The translations under genes and the position numbers were made by a program. The notes beneath the pieces are model-generated. The model saw only the letters and a program-made list of their open reading frames with translations, ran no database searches and was not told the origin of the DNA. A DNA stretch of 64,000 nucleotides, from NCBI RefSeq assembly GCF_032302195.1, contig NZ_CP135275.1:6859501-6923500 (forward strand). The letters are read 5' to 3'. The DNA comes from Paenibacillus sp. MMS20-IR301. GTDB taxonomy: Bacteria > Bacillota > Bacilli > Paenibacillales > Paenibacillaceae. This document shows, one piece after another, positions 12,422-23,132 of the stretch (positions are counted from its first letter, which is position 1; each line of letters opens with the position of its first letter).

Positions 12422-15400
12422 TTAATTACTTGATATGACTTGAAGCACTATGTTGTAAGTTTCTCTTAGATAGTTATTAGTTGCACTAAGAATTTCTAAT
12501 TGCTCTTGACTAACTATTGCTTTTGACAATCCCGGTTGAACGATATATATACTTAAATGAAATGGGTAAAACTTTGCCATTTTCTTGAGTTCATTAAGTT
12601 TTTTGAGTTCACCTAGTTCAAATCGGGAAGCTCTTCCACTTCTAAGTCGCATTCCTTCTCGACGTTCTAAATGTTTTAGTAAAGCGTATATATCGTCTTT
12701 CCATCGGATGCTTTTTTGAGCTTGTCCACAAACTTCATAAAGATCGGAAACTCTGGCACCTGGGGAAGAACCATGTGAATATTTGCAGTGGTAAAATTGA
12801 ATATAAATTTTCTCATCTGCCACCCTTATAGTGACAACATCTGCTGCTTCTCCAGAACTATCATCATCGAAAATTATATCGTAAATTCCTTCTGCTAATA
12901 GCTTTTGGATCAAAGCATATTGAATAGAGTCGGGTCTTTTCACTTCATTTTGTGATTCTTTTGTAATATCAGTATTATTCCAATTCCATCCGTTAATATA
13001 ATCAGAGTTATAGGGAAGATAGTTAGCCCTGTTTGGATTAACAAAATAATTGTTAGCCAGAAATGAACCATTGTGAAAACGAATAATAGGTGCTTCTTCA
13101 TAAAACCAAGTTGTAATGCTTTTCTTTGTCCCACCTTTTTTTATTTCAATATTCGATCGGTTACTCTGAATGTAACGGTAGTTTCTACCCTCTTCTATTG
13201 TGGGGTCGAAATGGAGTTCTAATTCTCCTTGATAGTTAGGTGTTACAAGCTTGAATTTTATGTTTCCTTCTAGGGAAGGAGTTTCAAGTTGTAGCTCACA
13301 CTCATATAATGGATAGTTAGTTCCATTTACTTCGATGTGAATCAATGATTCGCTATCAATAGCAAAAGATGTAGGCCACTCGATCGTAATTGGCATAAGG
13401 TTTGGTCTTTCTCTAATTATTATGGGTTTAAGAACGCCAGCTAGAAGATCATCTACATTTATTGATTCATCAGTTATCTTTGTTCCTACTGCATCACACC
13501 AATCGCACCAATCAGAAATCGTAGCAATCTTTCTGGACCATATCTTACCTCTGTAAGAACACCCAATGCTAGTCTTCTCACCGTTTTCGAATCCTAGACC
13601 AAAGATATTAGACTTAAAAGTATTTCTTTTTTGGGCATCAGATAATCCTTGTGCAATATCTACCCCGGTGTACATTCGGAAACTTATCGGTCCATGAAAG
13701 GCATCGTTAAGTCCTACATTTTGCAATATAATTCTGTTAAGCCCATGGAAAGTTTTAAAAATGTCCTCTCCTTTTATTATTTCAGCATTCTTAGTTATCA
13801 CTTCAGCTAATTGTTGATGAGTGCCTTTAATTGTGCTATTTATGAAAAGTAATCCTTTGGTGATATCGAAATATACAATATAGATATCCCACGAAATATT
13901 GTAAATCTCACGAATATCCCCCCAACTGACAGGGATTATATTTTTTATTACAGCAACCAAGATTTTACGTTCATTATGGATAGTATAGAGGACCTCTTGG
14001 CTTTTAGGGAAAATTTCAAGAATTCTGTCAGGTTGCCAAGCATGGCTATTTGTTTTGTATGAAACAGTACTCATTTTTGGATAAATATTTTGAATAGGAA
14101 TTTCCTCTATAAGCCCCGTTTGAAACCCACTTAGGAATTCAGATTGCTCAACAACAGTTCTTATTGCTCCAGTGCTAGAATTTTTCAGCAACACATTCCA
14201 GTCAGCATCTTCACTATACAGAGTTTTAATCTGATCGTTTACTTCTTGAAAAGCAATATTAGCAATCATGGAAGCTTCCCCTATATCTTTAGCTGTACGT
14301 GTAAAACGGCCAGTAAACTGTAGCGTGATCCCCAGGCTTTTGTGGATGTCATGCATTGCAGCAATCTTAAGTTGTGGAAGGTCAAAACCTTCTCCGAGCA
14401 TATCAACACAAATTATAATTCTTGATTGCCTGGAAAAGACTTTTTCTAGTGCTTCTTTCTTTTCGCTTGGGCGTAACTGACTATGAATTACTACAGGATT
14501 AAACTCCGGATATTCATTATAAAGAGGGGAGATTTCAAATGTTCTACTGATGCTGTTAACTCTGGCCATTAATATATGATCGAAACCTTGTTCAAGATCT
14601 TCTCTTAGTTTATTTACTGAAACTTGGGCAATGGATCTATCAGACAATTCTTCTGAGAATTGTAAGATAGGAAGAAAGTTGATTTTTTTAAAATACCCCT
14701 CATTCTGTGCCTTTTCTAAAGGGAAGTTGAAAATTATTTTTCCATCTAAGTGCTTACCGTCATTTCTAAAAGGAGTGGCTGTAAACTGAATAATATTCTT
14801 ATCAATAAATTTATCGCGGAAAGAAGCCCAAGTAGGAGCAGCGATATGATGCGCTTCGTCAATAAAAAGATGAGAACAGCGACCGGCTATTTTTAACTGT
14901 AGCTCTCTAGAGAGCCCTCCTACAATACTCATTGTCGTCACTACAACGTTACAAACGTTAAAAAGATTGTCAATATCCTCACTAGTCTTAGGTTTGTGTA
15001 GCATAAGTCCTACCACTGGGTAAAGTGCACCTTCACCAATAACACCGAACTTTTTTAAAACGCCAAAAGATATAAACTTATTAGAAATTTGTGTTCTAAG
15101 AGGATCTGTAGGGACTACTATTAAGAGCTTCTTGCATTGTTTAGAAACTAGTAAACTAATCATTGTTTCAGTTTTACCAGTGCCTGTAGGCATAACTACG
15201 GAAGCGGGCTTATCGGAAAGAATCCAATGTGATAAAACAGAGTGAATTGCTCCGACTTGCGGGGTTCTAAGTCCATCCTGTATGACTTCCTGTTCACGTG
15301 TGATTTCATATTTAAAATTAAACGAGTTTATCCAAGAGCCTAAAACAGTTTCTTGAATTTGTTCTAGTGGGATCGTTAACTCCCTAAGTAAGGGATGTTT

Positions 15401-15670
15401 TATCCATTTGAGTTGTGCGTTATCTAAGAGATCTCCATTTAGTTTTATGACATATGCAAATTGTTCTGGTATTCTTGCATTGTTTTTTAGTAATAATATA
15501 CTTTTGATGTCTTGATATTGTAAAACATATCCAATAGCCCTATCTTGCTTATAGTCCTGGTAAGGAAAAGTATCGGTTTCTTCTGGTAATAGGAGTTGTT
15601 TAACTTTGTTATTACTAATCGTTGTATCTACTTGAAAAATTGGAGGTAATGTAAGGAATATAGTTGCCAT
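12422..15670 (-). CDS. SF2 DEAD/DEAH helicase with probable PD-(D/E)XK-like C-terminus, putative defence protein
   Basis: A 1082-residue protein. The N-terminal half is a superfamily 2 helicase: motif I PTGTGKTET (about 161-169), Ia IVVPTDPLRTQI, motif II IDEAHH (about 270-275), motif III FTATPFR (about 296-302), and a second RecA domain with VVIHSQLR, DMLGEGFD and QFTGRFTRT (motif VI). A middle region contains a WCDWCD Cys pair. Near the C-terminus GEAADVV (Glu941, Asp944) followed by a strand ending in HCK (His961, Lys963) resembles a PD-(D/E)XK nuclease core with an HxK variant, then a helix VSDLYEVCGQAQKS. It is transcribed away from the OLD-nuclease operon across a 151-base gap. Low GC and context suggest a phage-defence helicase-nuclease; the nuclease assignment is inference. 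Confidence 0.75.
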   Translation of the reverse strand: MATIFLTLPPIFQVDTTISNNKVKQLLLPEETDTFPYQDYKQDRAIGYVLQYQDIKSILLLKNNARIPEQFAYVIKLNGDLLDNAQLKWIKHPLLRELTIPLEQIQETVLGSWINSFNFKYEITREQEVIQDGLRTPQVGAIHSVLSHWILSDKPASVVMPTGTGKTETMISLLVSKQCKKLLIVVPTDPLRTQISNKFISFGVLKKFGVIGEGALYPVVGLMLHKPKTSEDIDNLFNVCNVVVTTMSIVGGLSRELQLKIAGRCSHLFIDEAHHIAAPTWASFRDKFIDKNIIQFTATPFRNDGKHLDGKIIFNFPLEKAQNEGYFKKINFLPILQFSEELSDRSIAQVSVNKLREDLEQGFDHILMARVNSISRTFEISPLYNEYPEFNPVVIHSQLRPSEKKEALEKVFSRQSRIIICVDMLGEGFDLPQLKIAAMHDIHKSLGITLQFTGRFTRTAKDIGEASMIANIAFQEVNDQIKTLYSEDADWNVLLKNSSTGAIRTVVEQSEFLSGFQTGLIEEIPIQNIYPKMSTVSYKTNSHAWQPDRILEIFPKSQEVLYTIHNERKILVAVIKNIIPVSWGDIREIYNISWDIYIVYFDITKGLLFINSTIKGTHQQLAEVITKNAEIIKGEDIFKTFHGLNRIILQNVGLNDAFHGPISFRMYTGVDIAQGLSDAQKRNTFKSNIFGLGFENGEKTSIGCSYRGKIWSRKIATISDWCDWCDAVGTKITDESINVDDLLAGVLKPIIIRERPNLMPITIEWPTSFAIDSESLIHIEVNGTNYPLYECELQLETPSLEGNIKFKLVTPNYQGELELHFDPTIEEGRNYRYIQSNRSNIEIKKGGTKKSITTWFYEEAPIIRFHNGSFLANNYFVNPNRANYLPYNSDYINGWNWNNTDITKESQNEVKRPDSIQYALIQKLLAEGIYDIIFDDDSSGEAADVVTIRVADEKIYIQFYHCKYSHGSSPGARVSDLYEVCGQAQKSIRWKDDIYALLKHLERREGMRLRSGRASRFELGELKKLNELKKMAKFYPFHLSIYIVQPGLSKAIVSQEQLEILSATNNYLRETYNIVLQVISSN

Positions 15671-15821: not shown

Positions 15822-16010
15822 ATGAAAATTAATATTGTTAGTGATAGCTATATTTATGGGGCTTCAGATTATACAGTCTTCGTTTATGTAAATAATCTAT
15901 CAAAAAATGACTTAGTGCAAAAGTCTCTTCTACACCATTAGGAATTTGGAGAGTACTATGAAAATCCCAAAGCCTCACAGAAATTAGTTAAAGGAGAATT
16001 GAATCAGTGA
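15822..16010 (+). pseudogene. Small first cistron with an in-frame amber codon
   Basis: A reading frame opens at ATG 15822 (agaggg site upstream), runs 39 codons (MKINIVSDSYIYGASDYTVF...) and stops at TAG 15939-15941. The same frame then stays open for 22 more codons (EFGEYYENPKASQKLVKGEL...) and ends at TGA 16008-16010, overlapping the GTG start of the next cistron (GTGA). This tight coupling suggests the true gene was 62 codons long and a CAG-to-TAG type change interrupted it. I do not recognise the family. Alternatives are a genuine 39-residue peptide or a sequencing error. Confidence 0.5.
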
Positions 16011-17198
16011 GACCTAATAATAATGCACTTGAATTTGATAATGCCGTGGAAGGTAATGTTAAAAAGTATTTTAATAATAAGCATGCAACTTGCATGTTTC
16101 CAGGATGTAATGAGCATGCAATATCTTCTCACGCTATATCCAAAAAAAAATCATTAAGTCAGATTGCTGAAGATGGAATTTTATTTTCTGTTAAATCAAA
16201 GAGAATATACCCAGATAAAGAAATAAGTATAGGAGAAAAAGGGATAAATGACGCTTCAACATTTAAAGGGTTTTGTAAGCAACATGATGATATTTTCTCA
16301 AGCCTAGATAAGGAAGGGATTAAAACTGAAAAAGATGTGTTTCTTCAAGCATATCGTACGTTGAGTTATATAATATCAAATTGCTCCACAATTTTATGAA
16401 GGTTTAGAGAATAAAATTCTTGAGAATAAATCTATAAAAGAAATAGTAGAGCAGGCGAAAAAAAATGCTGAACAGAATAACGAGAAAAGAATAAAAAAAT
16501 TAATAATGTATTGCGTTGAAGTATTAGACGTTTTAAATAGGTATGAATTAGATTCAGCGGTATTCGGTGAAGATGAATATTTGATTATAGATGGTATTAT
16601 GAATCAGGATTTAAAGAAGCATATAAACAAATCTAATCAGGCTGATTTAGTTATTATTCATCGAATGGTTAACTATCAGATCCCAGTTGCAATAAGTACA
16701 AAAATTTCATACATAAGACCCAAAGGAAAAGAAGAAGAATTGTTTTTGATCTGTATTCCTTATAAAGAGCATTCAGACTTTATTATCATGTTTGACAAAC
16801 ACAAATCACTTTTTGCAGATAATGATTATTATTTGCATTATCTTGCAAATGATTTGAATATGTTGGATTTAATAGAGAAAGTAATGGCTTGTTCAGATGA
16901 TTGGTGGATTAATCCTAGCGTTTACAAAAATCTATCTGAAGATAAAAAGAAAGTTTTTGTTGATGATTTAAAATTTGGAACAGTTGATATTTTCAAACTA
17001 TACGATATATCTATTTTTGATGATTTAAGGATTCAGCTTATTAATAAATATAAGAAATGCGAAGGTATCCCATCGGAGCTAATAGAATTACATGAAAAAA
17101 GAATCCATCAGCTACCTCTCAGAGATAATGATGAATTAAGAAAAGAAGAACTTAATAAGAAATTGATGGCTCCATTTTTAGATTTTTGGAGAGAATAA
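16007..17198 (+). pseudogene. Frameshifted Cys/His treble-clef-like protein of the defence operon
   Basis: The first 130 codons (GTG 16007, aaaggag site) encode a possible zinc-binding module: CMFPGC-x3-H, SHAIS, and after a beta-rich stretch FCKQHD, followed by FLQAYRTLSY. That frame ends at 16399. The next frame is open from 16374 through 17198 without a start codon of its own that has a ribosome binding site, and reads QIAPQFYEGLENKIL... into a 230-residue C-terminal part ending FLDFWRE. Joining the frames near 16365-16380 (removing one base) gives one protein of about 396 residues. The N-terminal pattern resembles HNH/treble-clef modules, but no HNH catalytic set can be confirmed. The shift may be a real mutation or a sequencing error. 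Confidence 0.6.
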
Positions 17199-17259
17199 TC
17201 TCAAATCTTAATTTAAAGAATGTAAATTTAATAAATCATTTTAAAGGTGGAGGCAAGCA

Positions 17260-19365
17260 ATGAGATTAGTGAATGTGGAGATTAAAAATTATCGACTATT
17301 GCAAGACTTAAGTGGTATTAATAATGTTCAAATTGACCCGAAAACTACATTAATTGTGGGGAAAAACAATTCTGGGAAAACCTCCTTTACAAACATTTTT
17401 AATATGTTCCTAAGGCAAAACGGTAAGTTTGAATGGTCCGATTTTTCCTCAAACTCCCATTCTGAATTTAGAAAAATGTATCAGAATTATTGCGAGTCTA
17501 AAGAACAAGAAACTGAAGAAGATTTTTTTAAAAACTGCCCTTTAGATAACCTTTCAATTGAAATGTTGTTAACTATTGAATATAGCGATCAGGATAATTG
17601 GAGTAATATTAGACCATTACTAACATCCTTAGATGATTCAAACCAATTAAAGATTTTATTTTCGTATGCACTGGAACAACCAGAAATTTTTTTTCAACAA
17701 CTTCATAAGTTGAAAATTAAAAATAATCAGAAGGATATTATTGAACATGTAGAAAAGATATTTGAGAGTTACTTTAAGTTTGTGGTTCGCCCATACGATA
17801 GGAATGTAGACACTTCAGTCATCAATATTACAGATATAAAGAAAATTATTGGAACAACTTTTATTACTGCACAAAGAGAAGTTGATGATGGGAATTCTAA
17901 AAGTAGCACAAAATTATCCTCTGTGTTTCAAAGGGAATATCGAAATAGGTCAATAAAATCAGAAAATAAAGAAGACCAGGAATTAGAATTAAATGCTTTA
18001 AATGAAGAAATTATTAATGCTAATAGTGGCATTGATAAAAAATTGGACGATTTTTTTAGAGAATATATTAGCTCTTATGCTACTTTTGGGTATCCAAATT
18101 TACAGGATTCAGAGCTTACGTTGAAAGCAAATATGACTGTAACAAATTTATTTCAAAGTATTAGGCTTTTCTATAAAGATAGTGACCACATGTTACCTGA
18201 AAAATATAATGGCCTTGGATATAGTAATTTAATTTATATCATATCTGAAATACTTAGTTTTAAGGCAATGATTCAAGAGAATGGGACTGATCTAAACTTA
18301 ATCTTTGTTGAGGAGCCAGAAGCACACATGCATCCTCAACTACAGAGTATTCTTATACAAAGAATTAATTATTTTTTGGAAGTAAATAAAATTAATGCTC
18401 AGGTTATAATTACTACTCACTCATCACATATTGTTTCAAACTCAAGTTTTGAAAGTATCAGATATTTCTTTAGACGAAATAATAAGTGCGTAGCAGTTAA
18501 AGATATGATGAAGTTTTCTGTTAGTAATCAAACTGGCATTAAAGATGAAGAAGATAATGAATATGATGTTGATACACTTCAATTTTTAAAGAGATACATA
18601 ACTTTGGTGAAATGTGACATGTTTTTTGCTGATAAAATTGTGATGATTGAGGGACTTTGCGAAAGATTGCTTATGCCAATGTTTTTTGAAAAGGTAGATA
18701 CATACCTTCAAACCCAAAAGCCTATGGTTAAAATATTGTCCGAACAATATATATCGGTAATTGAAGTGAATGGAGCATATATGCATAAGTTTAAAGAATT
18801 TCTTGAATTCTTAGAGGTAAAAACTTTAATTATTACTGATATAGACTGTTGCATTAATTCAGAGGTTAAAAAGGATGGGGTTGTTCAAAAAAACTCGAAT
18901 GGTAGTGTGAAAACAAGATTGAAAAAAAATGAGGTGATTATGGAACAGCTTTCTAAGTTAGTGACAACTAACCCGACGCTTAAGGAATGGATTCCTGGAT
19001 GTGTGGCAATAGACGATCTGCTAAAGCACACTGTAAAAAAAGAACAGGCTAAAATCTCTGTTGCTTATCAGAAAAATGTGCTGCACGATCTTGATAAAGT
19101 GAAGTGCGGAAGAACTTTTGAAGAGGCATTTATAATTGATAATGCTAAGTTTATTTTTAATAATAAAGGCTTAATGAGCAGTATTTCAAATCTTATTCGT
19201 CCTTTTTCAAGTGAAGAGGATATATGGAATAATTCTTATATAATTTATGATTATATAGACAAAAATGATAAAAAATCTAATTTTGCATTTGATTTGATGT
19301 ATTTAAAGGAATGGAACGTTCCTTCATATATTGAGGAGGGGCTATCATGGCTAGCATCGGAGTAG
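17260..19365 (+). CDS. OLD-family ATPase/TOPRIM nuclease (class 2 OLD, GajA-like)
   Basis: An intact 701-residue protein. An ABC-type ATPase domain has Walker A VGKNNSGKTS (about 33-42), a long insertion, a signature-like region at about 320, Walker B LIFVEEPEAHMHPQ (about 346-358) and an H-loop TTHSSHIVS (about 387-395). The C-terminal TOPRIM domain has DKIVMIEGLCERLLMP (about 457-473, catalytic Glu) and LIITDIDC (about 523-530, Asp pair). Class 2 OLD nucleases pair with a UvrD-like helicase, which follows here with a 19-base overlap, as in Gabija (GajA-GajB). Canonical GajA is shorter, so this is a divergent member. An aaaggtggagg site precedes the ATG. It is the only complete gene of its operon. 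Confidence 0.85.
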   Translation: MRLVNVEIKNYRLLQDLSGINNVQIDPKTTLIVGKNNSGKTSFTNIFNMFLRQNGKFEWSDFSSNSHSEFRKMYQNYCESKEQETEEDFFKNCPLDNLSIEMLLTIEYSDQDNWSNIRPLLTSLDDSNQLKILFSYALEQPEIFFQQLHKLKIKNNQKDIIEHVEKIFESYFKFVVRPYDRNVDTSVINITDIKKIIGTTFITAQREVDDGNSKSSTKLSSVFQREYRNRSIKSENKEDQELELNALNEEIINANSGIDKKLDDFFREYISSYATFGYPNLQDSELTLKANMTVTNLFQSIRLFYKDSDHMLPEKYNGLGYSNLIYIISEILSFKAMIQENGTDLNLIFVEEPEAHMHPQLQSILIQRINYFLEVNKINAQVIITTHSSHIVSNSSFESIRYFFRRNNKCVAVKDMMKFSVSNQTGIKDEEDNEYDVDTLQFLKRYITLVKCDMFFADKIVMIEGLCERLLMPMFFEKVDTYLQTQKPMVKILSEQYISVIEVNGAYMHKFKEFLEFLEVKTLIITDIDCCINSEVKKDGVVQKNSNGSVKTRLKKNEVIMEQLSKLVTTNPTLKEWIPGCVAIDDLLKHTVKKEQAKISVAYQKNVLHDLDKVKCGRTFEEAFIIDNAKFIFNNKGLMSSISNLIRPFSSEEDIWNNSYIIYDYIDKNDKKSNFAFDLMYLKEWNVPSYIEEGLSWLASE

Positions 19366-19614
19366 TCGATCAGGTATACGAATGCATTGATAATAGCGAA
19401 AGTTTTATCATTGAGGCTGGAGCTGGAAGTGGGAAAACTTGGACCTTAGTAAAAGCGTTAGAGTATATTATCCAGAAGAAAGAGAGACAATTTCAAAAGC
19501 AACATAGAAAAGTGGCTTGTATAACTTACACTAATATTGCAAAAGAAGAAATAATTAGCCGTATTAATGGAAATGAAATTGTTGAGGTTAAGACCATTCA
19601 TGATTTTCTTTGGA

Positions 19615-19639
19615 AGATAAGAGTCAATTTCATAATTCA
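19615..19639 (+). repeat. Left target duplication and terminal inverted repeat of the IS
   Basis: AGATAA at 19615-19620 is the target duplication. GAGTCAATTTCATAATTCA at 19621-19639 is the left end of the element, and its exact reverse complement is the right end at 21263-21281. Confidence 0.9.
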
Positions 19640-21281
19640 AAACCCTTGCTATATCTGGTTTTGTTGAGCATAGAAAAAGGAGTACCTCCCCACATTCTCG
19701 AATTTATAGGCGACGAAACCCACCCGAGAACGAAAAGAGGTAATCCCTATCTATTCAATTCGACAAGAAGAACTGTTTTCCTTTAAGGAATTGTTCCAGA
19801 TGAACCCCGAAGATAAATACAACCATATTTTTGAGCACTTAGATCTCTCCAAGGTGCTGCACACCCTCCGGAAAAAGAGTAACCGTGGCCGACCCGAAAA
19901 ACTGAATGTACCTGCGATGATCTATTCATTGCTCATCGCCAAAATGGAGAACATCGAGTTTATTTCTTCTCTGGTCTGGCGTCTTTTGCACAGTGAAGAG
20001 TTTCGGGCGCAGTGCCGATTTACCGGCTCCGACAATATCCCGAGTGAAGCCTCGTATTCCCGTTTGATTCATGCGCTAGAGCAAACCGGAATGCTCGAGA
20101 ACCTGCAGGATTCGTTGGTCCTGTCTGCCCTAGAGGAAGGGTTTGTTAGCGGTACACATCTCGCCGTGGATTCCTCTATTGTGGAGGCTTGGGATTGCCA
20201 ATTCAGCGAAGCTGCGGCGAAACGCCGCGCCGCTCGCCGTCCACCAAAGCCAAGTGAGGCTTCGGTGGCAGAGCCGCAGCTCCAGTTTGAACTCCCGGAG
20301 CCGAAGCCCACCGTAGTGAACGGGCCACCGAAGAAACCTGCCTACGCCAAGCGTGGACGTCCATCGCATGCAGAACGAGAATGCCGACGGGAGGAACAAG
20401 AAGCTTATGAACAAAGCCTCGGACCGTTTCAGAAAACCATTGAAGCAATGTTGCCTTACACCTATGACGAACTGTTGGCCGCGCTGCCCCGGCATGCCGC
20501 ACGTTGTGACAAGAAAAATACGAAGGGGCGACTCACCAGTTATTACGGGTTCAAGGCAAATCTGCTGGTTGATACGGACAGTCAATATATTGTTAGTGGC
20601 TTATGGAGTTCAGCGAATCCCAATGACCAGCGTATGGCGGTTGTTCTCCTCAAAGGCCTGCTTCTGAAGTTCCCTTCGCTAAACGTAAAGCATATCTTGG
20701 GCGACAAAGGGTATGACAGTTCAGCCATTTACCAGTTGATTCATTCCTTAGGCGCTTTTCCTATTATTAAAATGATTCACCACAAAAAACCGCCCGAGGG
20801 GATGAACCAGGATTACACCCCTGTGTGCTCGCAGGGACACGCCTACCGTTACGACAGTTTCGATGCCAAATACGAAACGCTGCGTTACACCAGGCCGAAC
20901 CAGTGTAAAGACTGTCCATTTTCCGAATCCGGCTGCCAAAAAGTGTTTAAGATCCGAATTCAAACCGATTTGCGAAAGCACGCTTACCCAGCAAGAGGGA
21001 GCGAGAGCTTTACGCAACTGTATAACAAACGAACGGCTGTAGAACGTGTTTTTGCCTACCTCAAAGAGTATTTTGGGATGAAACGCACACGTCACCGCGG
21101 CGTCCGGGCAAGTGTCGATTTCCAGCTCAGCACATTGGCCTACAATTTGAGTAAGTTTGCGCTAGACAAGTTGAACAAGCAGTTGAGTAACTCCCAGCAA
21201 GTGGCCTAACTTTTTTTAAAAAACAAACTCAGCTTTTGGCCCAGTCTTGCTATTCAGCAAACTGAATTATGAAATTGACTC
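19621..21281 (+). mobile_element. IS1182-family-like insertion sequence, 1661 bp
   Basis: The element is bounded by perfect 19-base terminal inverted repeats and flanked by the 6-base direct repeat AGATAA (19615-19620 and 21282-21287). It carries one transposase gene in the same direction as the interrupted helicase. Excision on paper restores the host reading frame exactly, so insertion was simple and nothing was lost. The higher GC content of the element compared with the surrounding island suggests separate and recent arrival. Confidence 0.92.
19791..21209 (+). CDS. IS1182-type DDE transposase
   Basis: A transposase of about 470 residues. The N-terminal domain (NPEDKYNHIFEHLDLS...NRGRPEKLNVPAMIYSLL) is the DUF772-like DNA-binding domain of this family. 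The catalytic core shows the first Asp in LAVDSSIVEAWD, the second in ILGDKGYDS and the Glu in KRTAVERVFAYLKEYFGMKRTRHRG (Y-REK-like region). A CKDCPFSESGC zinc-ribbon-like insert lies between them. The start is uncertain: TTG 19791 or ATG 19800 (aagga site). In-frame codons resembling family sequence (SIRQEELFSFKELFQ) continue upstream to about 19755 without a standard start codon. The gene appears intact, so the element may still be active. Confidence 0.88.
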   Translation: MFQMNPEDKYNHIFEHLDLSKVLHTLRKKSNRGRPEKLNVPAMIYSLLIAKMENIEFISSLVWRLLHSEEFRAQCRFTGSDNIPSEASYSRLIHALEQTGMLENLQDSLVLSALEEGFVSGTHLAVDSSIVEAWDCQFSEAAAKRRAARRPPKPSEASVAEPQLQFELPEPKPTVVNGPPKKPAYAKRGRPSHAERECRREEQEAYEQSLGPFQKTIEAMLPYTYDELLAALPRHAARCDKKNTKGRLTSYYGFKANLLVDTDSQYIVSGLWSSANPNDQRMAVVLLKGLLLKFPSLNVKHILGDKGYDSSAIYQLIHSLGAFPIIKMIHHKKPPEGMNQDYTPVCSQGHAYRYDSFDAKYETLRYTRPNQCKDCPFSESGCQKVFKIRIQTDLRKHAYPARGSESFTQLYNKRTAVERVFAYLKEYFGMKRTRHRGVRASVDFQLSTLAYNLSKFALDKLNKQLSNSQQVA

Positions 21282-21287
21282 AGATAA
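21263..21287 (+). repeat. Right terminal inverted repeat and target duplication of the IS
   Basis: TGAATTATGAAATTGACTC at 21263-21281 is the exact reverse complement of the left end. AGATAA at 21282-21287 is the second copy of the target duplication. Confidence 0.9.
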
Positions 21288-23132
21288 TACAACCATTCCA
21301 AAAAGAACTTAAACAAGAACTACTTTTGTATATAAACTCTAAAATTCAAAAGAATTTAGAAATTTTAAGTAAATCAAAAGAAACAACCAAAAAATATAAG
21401 GATGCTCGTGACGAGAATGAAAAGTACCAAGAACGAATTGAGTCATTAACGAAGCTGAAATCTAGAATTCAATATAAAGATAACGCCAATTATAAAAAAG
21501 GTATTATTTCGCATGATGTAATGCTTGAACTGAGTATCAATATAATAAATAATAACAAAAAGTTATTAAAGATAATTCAAGATACTTATCCGGTAATCTT
21601 CATTGATGAGTATCAAGATACAAAGTCAGCAGTGGCTAAACTCTTATTAGAACATATAAAACCATCTACAACCATTTTATTCGGATTATTTGGGGACTAT
21701 TATCAGCAGATTTACAATGGGACAGTAGGGAGGGTAGATGCGGATCTTCATAAATTGAAACCTATTTTGAAGAGCGAAAATTATCGTTCCTCAGATGTGA
21801 TTATATCACTCCTTAATAGAATTCGAACAGATAATTTGGAACAAATACCCTCGGGCACTGAAAAAGAAGGGAAAAGCCATTTCTACTATGTTAATAATCG
21901 AGAGCTGGATACTGAAAAATTTATTAAAGAACGTATTAGTTTGGATTTTTCCATAGATGCTTCAGATAATATGAAGAAACTATTCCTCGTAACTAAAGCG
22001 ATTGCCAAAAAAAATGGTTATATTGAATTACATGAGTTATATGATGAAGACGACAGTGCAACATACAAAGTGGGGCAAATTAAATCTGGTTTTATAGATA
22101 TGCTCCGTTCAAATAAGCGAGATGTTAGCCAGATATCAAAAATAATTTTTGAAATGCTTCCTACAGAAATTCAAATAGCTATTGATAATGGGAGCTTACA
22201 AAATAATGATGATGAATTTATTGATGCTTTTAATAAGTGTATCGTAAAAAATAAAAAGTTCAATGAGCTTGAAATATTTGATGATTCGATCGTTCAGTCG
22301 TTTGAGAAGGGTCAGAAAAGTGAAATTATAAATAGAATATTACTTGAAACTTACTTTCCGGGATTGTTTTCTAAATACAGCTTGTCAAAAGCGAGAAGAG
22401 CAAAAAGCAAGGATATGTTGCTTAAAAATGCATCTAATAGAGATTGCATCTTTGCAAATCTTTTATTTGATATTGAGGAAGTTATTGAATTATACCAGAG
22501 TAATAAGGTTCAACTGCTACTAAAAAAGACAGCATTTGAGCTGAATAATATTCAAGATAAATTGAGCTTAAATAAAATATTATTGGAATTGATTTCTTTA
22601 TCTGATAAAGGTAAGATCTCTGAAGTGTTTGATTTTGTTAATGAAAATCGAATACTGGAGTATTCCAACAAATTAAAGGATGCATTTAATAACGAATTTA
22701 TAAAAGACTCATTTTATGAAGATCTTATGGAACTAGAATATATACAATTTAGACTCTTACATAAAACTGTCAAAGATACCTCTCCATTTTCCACAAATCA
22801 TGGAACTAAAGGGGCAGAGTTTAACAATGTAGTATGTTTTATAGATGACAATGATTGGAATTCATATAGTCTAAATAAGTACTTAGAGGGACGTCCGGAT
22901 ATAGGAGCAGTTATTACCAACAATTTTGATATACAGACAAGAACAAGAAACTTGTTTTATGTTATATGCTCTCGAGCAAAGCATAATTTAGCTATTGTTG
23001 TTATGTCTGAAATGTCTTCGAAAAGCATTGCTGAAGCCAAAAGTTTATTTGGTGAGGGGAATTTCATTGATTGTTTTGCAGGTCAACAGCAATTACAATC
23101 AAATTAAGTGTTACTCTAAATCTAAACGATAA

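Follow-up and report, generated by a model that had tools for sequence, protein, structure and literature searches.

The locus analysed here spans positions 15822 to 23107 of the window, by which we mean the whole 64,000-nucleotide stretch taken from the single-contig, 7.69 Mb genome of Paenibacillus sp. MMS20-IR301. It holds the two genes of a Gabija system, namely gajA and a gajB split by an insertion sequence (IS), preceded by the remains of a gene that we call UP2 and by a short, doubtful open reading frame, UP1 (Table 1). The compact arrangement described in an earlier, sequence-only reading of this DNA can indeed be seen: the TGA of UP1 overlaps the GTG start of UP2 (GTGA), 61 bases separate UP2 from GajA, and the frames of GajA and the helicase overlap by 19 bases. 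Adjoining the locus on the minus strand is a divergent gene (12422-15670) for a 1082-residue SF2 helicase (ResIII, DEAD, Helicase_C) whose matches in PADLOC are weak; in our own reading, its C-terminal residue pattern could be that of a nuclease, and the gene is possibly another solitary defence gene.

Table 1. Features of the locus, in window coordinates.
Feature	Position	Strand	Basis
UP1, possible 62-codon ORF, with TAG at 15939-15941	15822..16010	+	sequence alone; gene status doubtful
UP2 pseudogene, roughly 390-residue putative zinc-binding protein	16007..17198	+	homology to P0002
GajA, 701 aa	17260..19365	+	open frame; Pfam, PADLOC, invariant motifs
GajB N-terminal piece (UvrD-like helicase, with Walker A)	19347..19620	+	PADLOC GajB 4.1e-36
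Target site duplication, 6 bases	left 19615..19620, right 21282-21287	+	uninterrupted site in L037 (genome G172)
IS, 1661 bp, DDE transposase	19621..21281	+	ends, target duplication, other copies
IS transposase ORF, 472 aa	19791-21209	+	inside IS
GajB C-terminal piece (remaining helicase motifs, including DEYQDT)	21282..23107	+	PADLOC GajB 2.5e-108

The GajA product carries the Pfam domains AAA_15 (9.2e-48) and OLD-like_TOPRIM (6e-16), both above cut-off. Against PADLOC it matched 77 families, the best being a GajA model at 3.7e-166, and 24 of the best 25 of these 77 families were GajA, the remaining one being AriA. The Walker A, Walker B, H-loop, TOPRIM Glu and DxD motifs are invariant among the window protein, two close homologues and one distant homologue (GKNNSGKTS, EEPEAH-x-HPQ, IEG and TDID), the roles of the TOPRIM residues being taken from published work (PMC10781630). 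The open frame, domains and conserved motifs thus bear out the intact 701-residue OLD ATPase/TOPRIM gene of the earlier reading. Among solved structures, phmmer at 1e-3 matched the protein only to TsOLD and to a class 2 OLD TOPRIM chain, with no match to a full-length solved GajA, and the strain's own genome gave no second match to the protein at E 0.001. When compared with the GajA of its closest relative (G172), the C-terminal third of the gene (18622-19362) displays 3 synonymous and 13 nonsynonymous differences, and the first 450 codons 34 and 20, respectively, a pattern that may reflect mosaic ancestry or changed constraint.

Downstream of GajA, GajB models matched both pieces of a UvrD-like helicase gene, and the cut by an IS that had been proposed for this gene is supported by perfectly matching 18-base inverted ends and by the target duplication. 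The open frame of the N-terminal piece continues into the IS as far as 19667. This piece is 98.9% identical to the open GajB of G172, while the C-terminal piece shares 92% identity with G172 and 94% with G461, in both of which GajB is open. Since the insertion separates the Walker A motif from the remaining helicase motifs, neither piece should work as a helicase; GajB is present yet split, and as read would not be functional. Pairwise dN/dS values of the C-terminal piece among the window, G172 and G461 range from 0.11 to 0.19, and solving these values for the window branch gave a dN of about 0.010, a dS of about 0.074 and a ratio of about 0.13. Because the C-terminal piece displays neither relaxed constraint nor decay, the insertion looks recent. 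Six copies of the IS with both ends occur in the genome, i.e. five besides this one, and when 1629 bases were compared, five of the six reached an identical top score; as near-identical copies, they suggest that the element was probably active recently in this genome.

The pairing of a class 2 OLD nuclease with a UvrD-like helicase had been called Gabija-like from the letters alone, and the PADLOC scores of both proteins support its assignment to Gabija. A review equates class 2 OLD proteins with GajA and describes them as occurring with GajB (PMC10568477), and the window locus fits this description, with GajB broken. Resistance to T7 conferred by the Bacillus cereus Gabija requires the whole cassette, according to published work (PMC8136825), so the window locus probably gives no protection. 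The proposed inactivation of the operon is consistent with our results, as a system with a split GajB is very probably inactive. In mechanistic terms, the cassette would be situated in a defence island of the chromosome, where the whole system would form a complex of GajA and GajB that cuts invading phage DNA, as in published Gabija. The IS, by splitting GajB after the Walker A region, would leave this system inactive; GajA may still be made, and without GajB it should not defend.

The earlier reading had further suggested that a potentially harmful nuclease is kept while the rest of the operon breaks; in one rival explanation, selection on GajA would set the order of inactivation. GajA is open here and GajB is cut, as this idea would have it. 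However, the reverse is seen in G461 (L079 8214-10315), where GajA is frameshifted and GajB is open, albeit in a draft genome in which an assembly error is possible. Moreover, overexpressed GajA was not toxic in Escherichia coli in published work (PMC8136825), and a preference cannot be shown from a single IS hit. Together, these points weaken the proposal, and we consider selective sparing of the nuclease very improbable. The G461 locus itself appears to represent, within the limits of a draft genome, an independent loss of Gabija through the other subunit.

Upstream of GajA, the in-frame TAG that had been described as an amber lesion is present in UP1, but no homologue of UP1 was found. Reading through the TAG (as X) retrieved no candidate among 5.8 billion proteins in a word-based search, a method with little power for a sequence this short. 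At a cut-off of E 0.1, neither of its two pieces matched any of 28 loci with UP2-like genes. UP1 is doubtful and is not counted here as a proven gene. In UP2, the first frame runs from the GTG across 16007-16399, and homology in the second frame begins at about 16383. A search with the second half matched the protein P0002 (73%, covering 74% of the query) and P0003 of Paenibacillus ottowii (52%, covering 64%), and P0002 is 72% identical to each half. Near 16380-16382, seven residues of P0002 stand opposite one left-over base of the window, so about 20 bases would have been lost from UP2, in our own reading of this protein-level comparison. The earlier description of UP2 as a broken gene therefore stands, but a '+1' change does not, given the loss of about 20 bases relative to P0002.

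The lesions, which are read here from the assembled sequence, might be ascribed to assembly or sequencing errors, in which case the living strain would carry whole genes. An error at a single base is unlikely to account for the roughly 20 bases missing from UP2, and the IS has proper ends, a target duplication and five further copies in a genome assembled as one contig; we therefore regard such errors as extremely unlikely. Overall, the claim that three of the four genes are broken holds for UP2 and GajB, while GajA is open and UP1 is doubtful as a gene.

Neither half of UP2 matched a family in Pfam or PADLOC, and no name for the family was found in Pfam, NCBIfam or PADLOC. Five residues (Cys, Cys, His, Cys and His) are invariant across fifteen UP2 relatives and are arranged as C-x4-7-C, then [SA]-H-x-I, then F-C-x2-H, where the His of the middle motif is invariant but not its every residue; two of the 15 also carry a SEC-C motif. 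A 393-residue protein of Paenibacillus plantiphilus (L024/L026) has the same five residues and aligns with both UP2 halves; in contrast to the window's copy its gene is open, and the fetched stretch holds no GajA. In the predicted model of an intact relative, the N-terminal part displays strands and then a helix, which begins at the last Cys/His pair. We take this residue pattern and predicted strand-helix order to resemble a treble clef, such as that of HNH nucleases or of PtuB of Septu. Unlike HNH and other treble-clef nucleases, however, the UP2 family has no invariant Asn and matched none of the HNH models of Pfam or NCBIfam, and fold searches returned weak, mixed matches with no clear fold match. 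As a guess from the residue pattern, the likeliest action of UP2 would be zinc-dependent nucleic-acid binding or HNH-like cutting.

The sequence-only reading took UP2 and UP1 to be coupled cistrons of an extended Gabija, a proposal that can be set against the relatives of the system. Among 394 genomes of the family, 20 (the window's own included) have a GajA match at 1e-40, the closest GajAB relatives by GajA being G172 (96%), G461 (89-90%, aligned in two pieces) and G273 (69%). UP2 was sought at these three GajAB loci and found at none of them, G273 likewise carrying a two-gene system. The homology between the cassettes of the window and G172 starts at base 17259, immediately ahead of the GajA ATG, and the same holds for G461. 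Within the 1 kb upstream of GajA, G172 and G461 are 84% identical to each other, whereas the window's upstream 1.1 kb displayed only chance matches to either, of at most 14 bases. These comparisons would be explained if the cassette's 5' flank had been exchanged down to the GajA start codon, whereby UP2, already dead by its deletion of about 20 bases, would have come to stand before GajA.

A profile search for UP2 in the fetched stretches around the 19 other Gabija loci, one of which (G033) was covered for only about 130 bases upstream of GajA, found a UP2-like gene near one of them (G153). Conversely, among 28 UP2-like loci other than the window's, GajA proper occurs in one, again G153. They were drawn from 27 genomes or records, with two loci from G060; some of their flanks end at contig ends, and the count leaves out the neighbourhoods of the closest UP2 relatives, P0002 and P0003. 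In G040, both genes are present but lie about 3.6 Mb apart. With 18 of the 19 Gabija loci lacking UP2 and 27 of the 28 UP2-like loci lacking GajA proper, UP2 and Gabija look independent and would have been joined here through a local rearrangement. This result is, for UP2, the outcome that the earlier reading had itself named as speaking against an extended operon, and together with the two-gene close relatives it removes the support for coupled upstream cistrons. No four-gene Gabija was found in the literature searched on the system, as far as its text was available.

Several observations could nevertheless be read as UP2 being an optional Gabija accessory, which would modulate GajAB in a few lineages as a zinc-binding sensor or as a second nuclease; the window locus would then be a decayed version with additional cistrons. 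Pairs of an ATPase with an HNH protein occur in Septu and offer a precedent. A gap of 61 bases would be compatible with co-transcription in this strain, and OLD ATPases tie as the commonest neighbour of UP2-like genes (two other loci and the window). In G153, the UP2-like gene does lie upstream of the GajAB pair on the same strand, but at a distance of 848 bases and with a SEC-C-like N-terminus. A distant OLD-type ATPase adjoins the UP2-like gene of G027, but there the gene is downstream of the ATPase; in G353, a PtuA-like ATPase, a still weaker match, lies 3 kb away. As UP2 is also absent from the closest GajAB relatives and GajA proper from nearly all UP2-like loci, we judge the accessory role improbable. 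Of the suggested upstream accessory module, what survives is an unnamed family that often lies near defence genes, and not a fixed partner of Gabija. The locus is thus very likely a two-gene Gabija with a broken GajB rather than an extended four-gene operon.

The UP2 family is rare: P0002 has matches in 13 of 394 family genomes and the UP2 profile in 11 of 398 class genomes, the window's own genome being included in both counts. PADLOC matches at 1e-15 or better lie within 4.5 kb in at least 13 of the 28 UP2-like loci, a lower bound given the number of neighbours scanned. In the first set of 18 loci, these matches are PDC-M01AB/PtuA-like genes, a SIR2 protein, PDC-S14, a KAP/PifA-like protein, PDC-S50, a helical REase, DndFG, an LmuB-like ATPase, GajAB, and OLD plus SIR2; in the second set of ten loci, they are Avs2, a DRT reverse transcriptase and PDC-S33. 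The PADLOC tallies cover 72 of 152 listed neighbours and give the first 25 families, the matching member not being specified. Among neighbours scanned singly, 12 of 28 in the first set and 3 of 9 in the second reached the cut-off of 1e-15, as compared with 1 of 30 ordinary window ORFs; this comparison is rough, as the scanned neighbours were chosen by length and closeness, and the second set is represented by 9 of its 68 neighbours, from 7 of the 10 loci. No neighbour family occurs in more than three UP2-like loci. Outside the window's family, UP2-like genes stand beside Avs2 and DRT (RT_UG31) in L107 (G783) and L113 (G536). At another locus (L112 8640-10589, minus strand), a 649-residue protein with no PADLOC match at 1e-15 is encoded 37 bases upstream of a UP2-like gene.

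Such proximity to defence genes is an association and not a function, and its simplest reading is that UP2 belongs to a stand-alone gene family of defence islands. With somewhat less than even confidence, we propose that UP2 represents an undescribed stand-alone anti-phage family. Its members would combine an N-terminal zinc-binding, treble-clef-like domain (in some with SEC-C) with a long helical segment and a C-terminal alpha/beta part, and would be spread through Bacilli and beyond, recurring near Gabija, Septu-like, SIR2, Dnd, Avs2 and DRT genes. This family is the sole novel lead from the locus: it is broadly distributed, without a family in Pfam, NCBIfam or PADLOC, and known defence genes lie close by in about half of the loci looked at.

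Taken as a whole, we consider it highly probable that the locus is a two-gene Gabija inactivated by the IS, and that UP2 is an independent, already dead neighbour that arrived through exchange of the flank. It would thus add a further example of a defence system lost through transposition, and it cautions that close spacing and start/stop overlaps are not enough to call neighbouring genes one system. The nearest counterpart, the GajAB locus of G172 (L037), shares the GajA and GajB identities given above and the same upstream chromosomal genes, in our own reading an RNA-methyltransferase-like and a TrkA-like gene; it differs in that both of its genes are open, in its other upstream flank, and in having neither UP1 nor UP2. 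With published Gabija, the locus shares both proteins, the gene order, the ATPase and TOPRIM motifs and the PADLOC models, and differs in the IS that splits GajB. It is a new though damaged representative of a known system, and beside it lies a defence-island gene that has no name.
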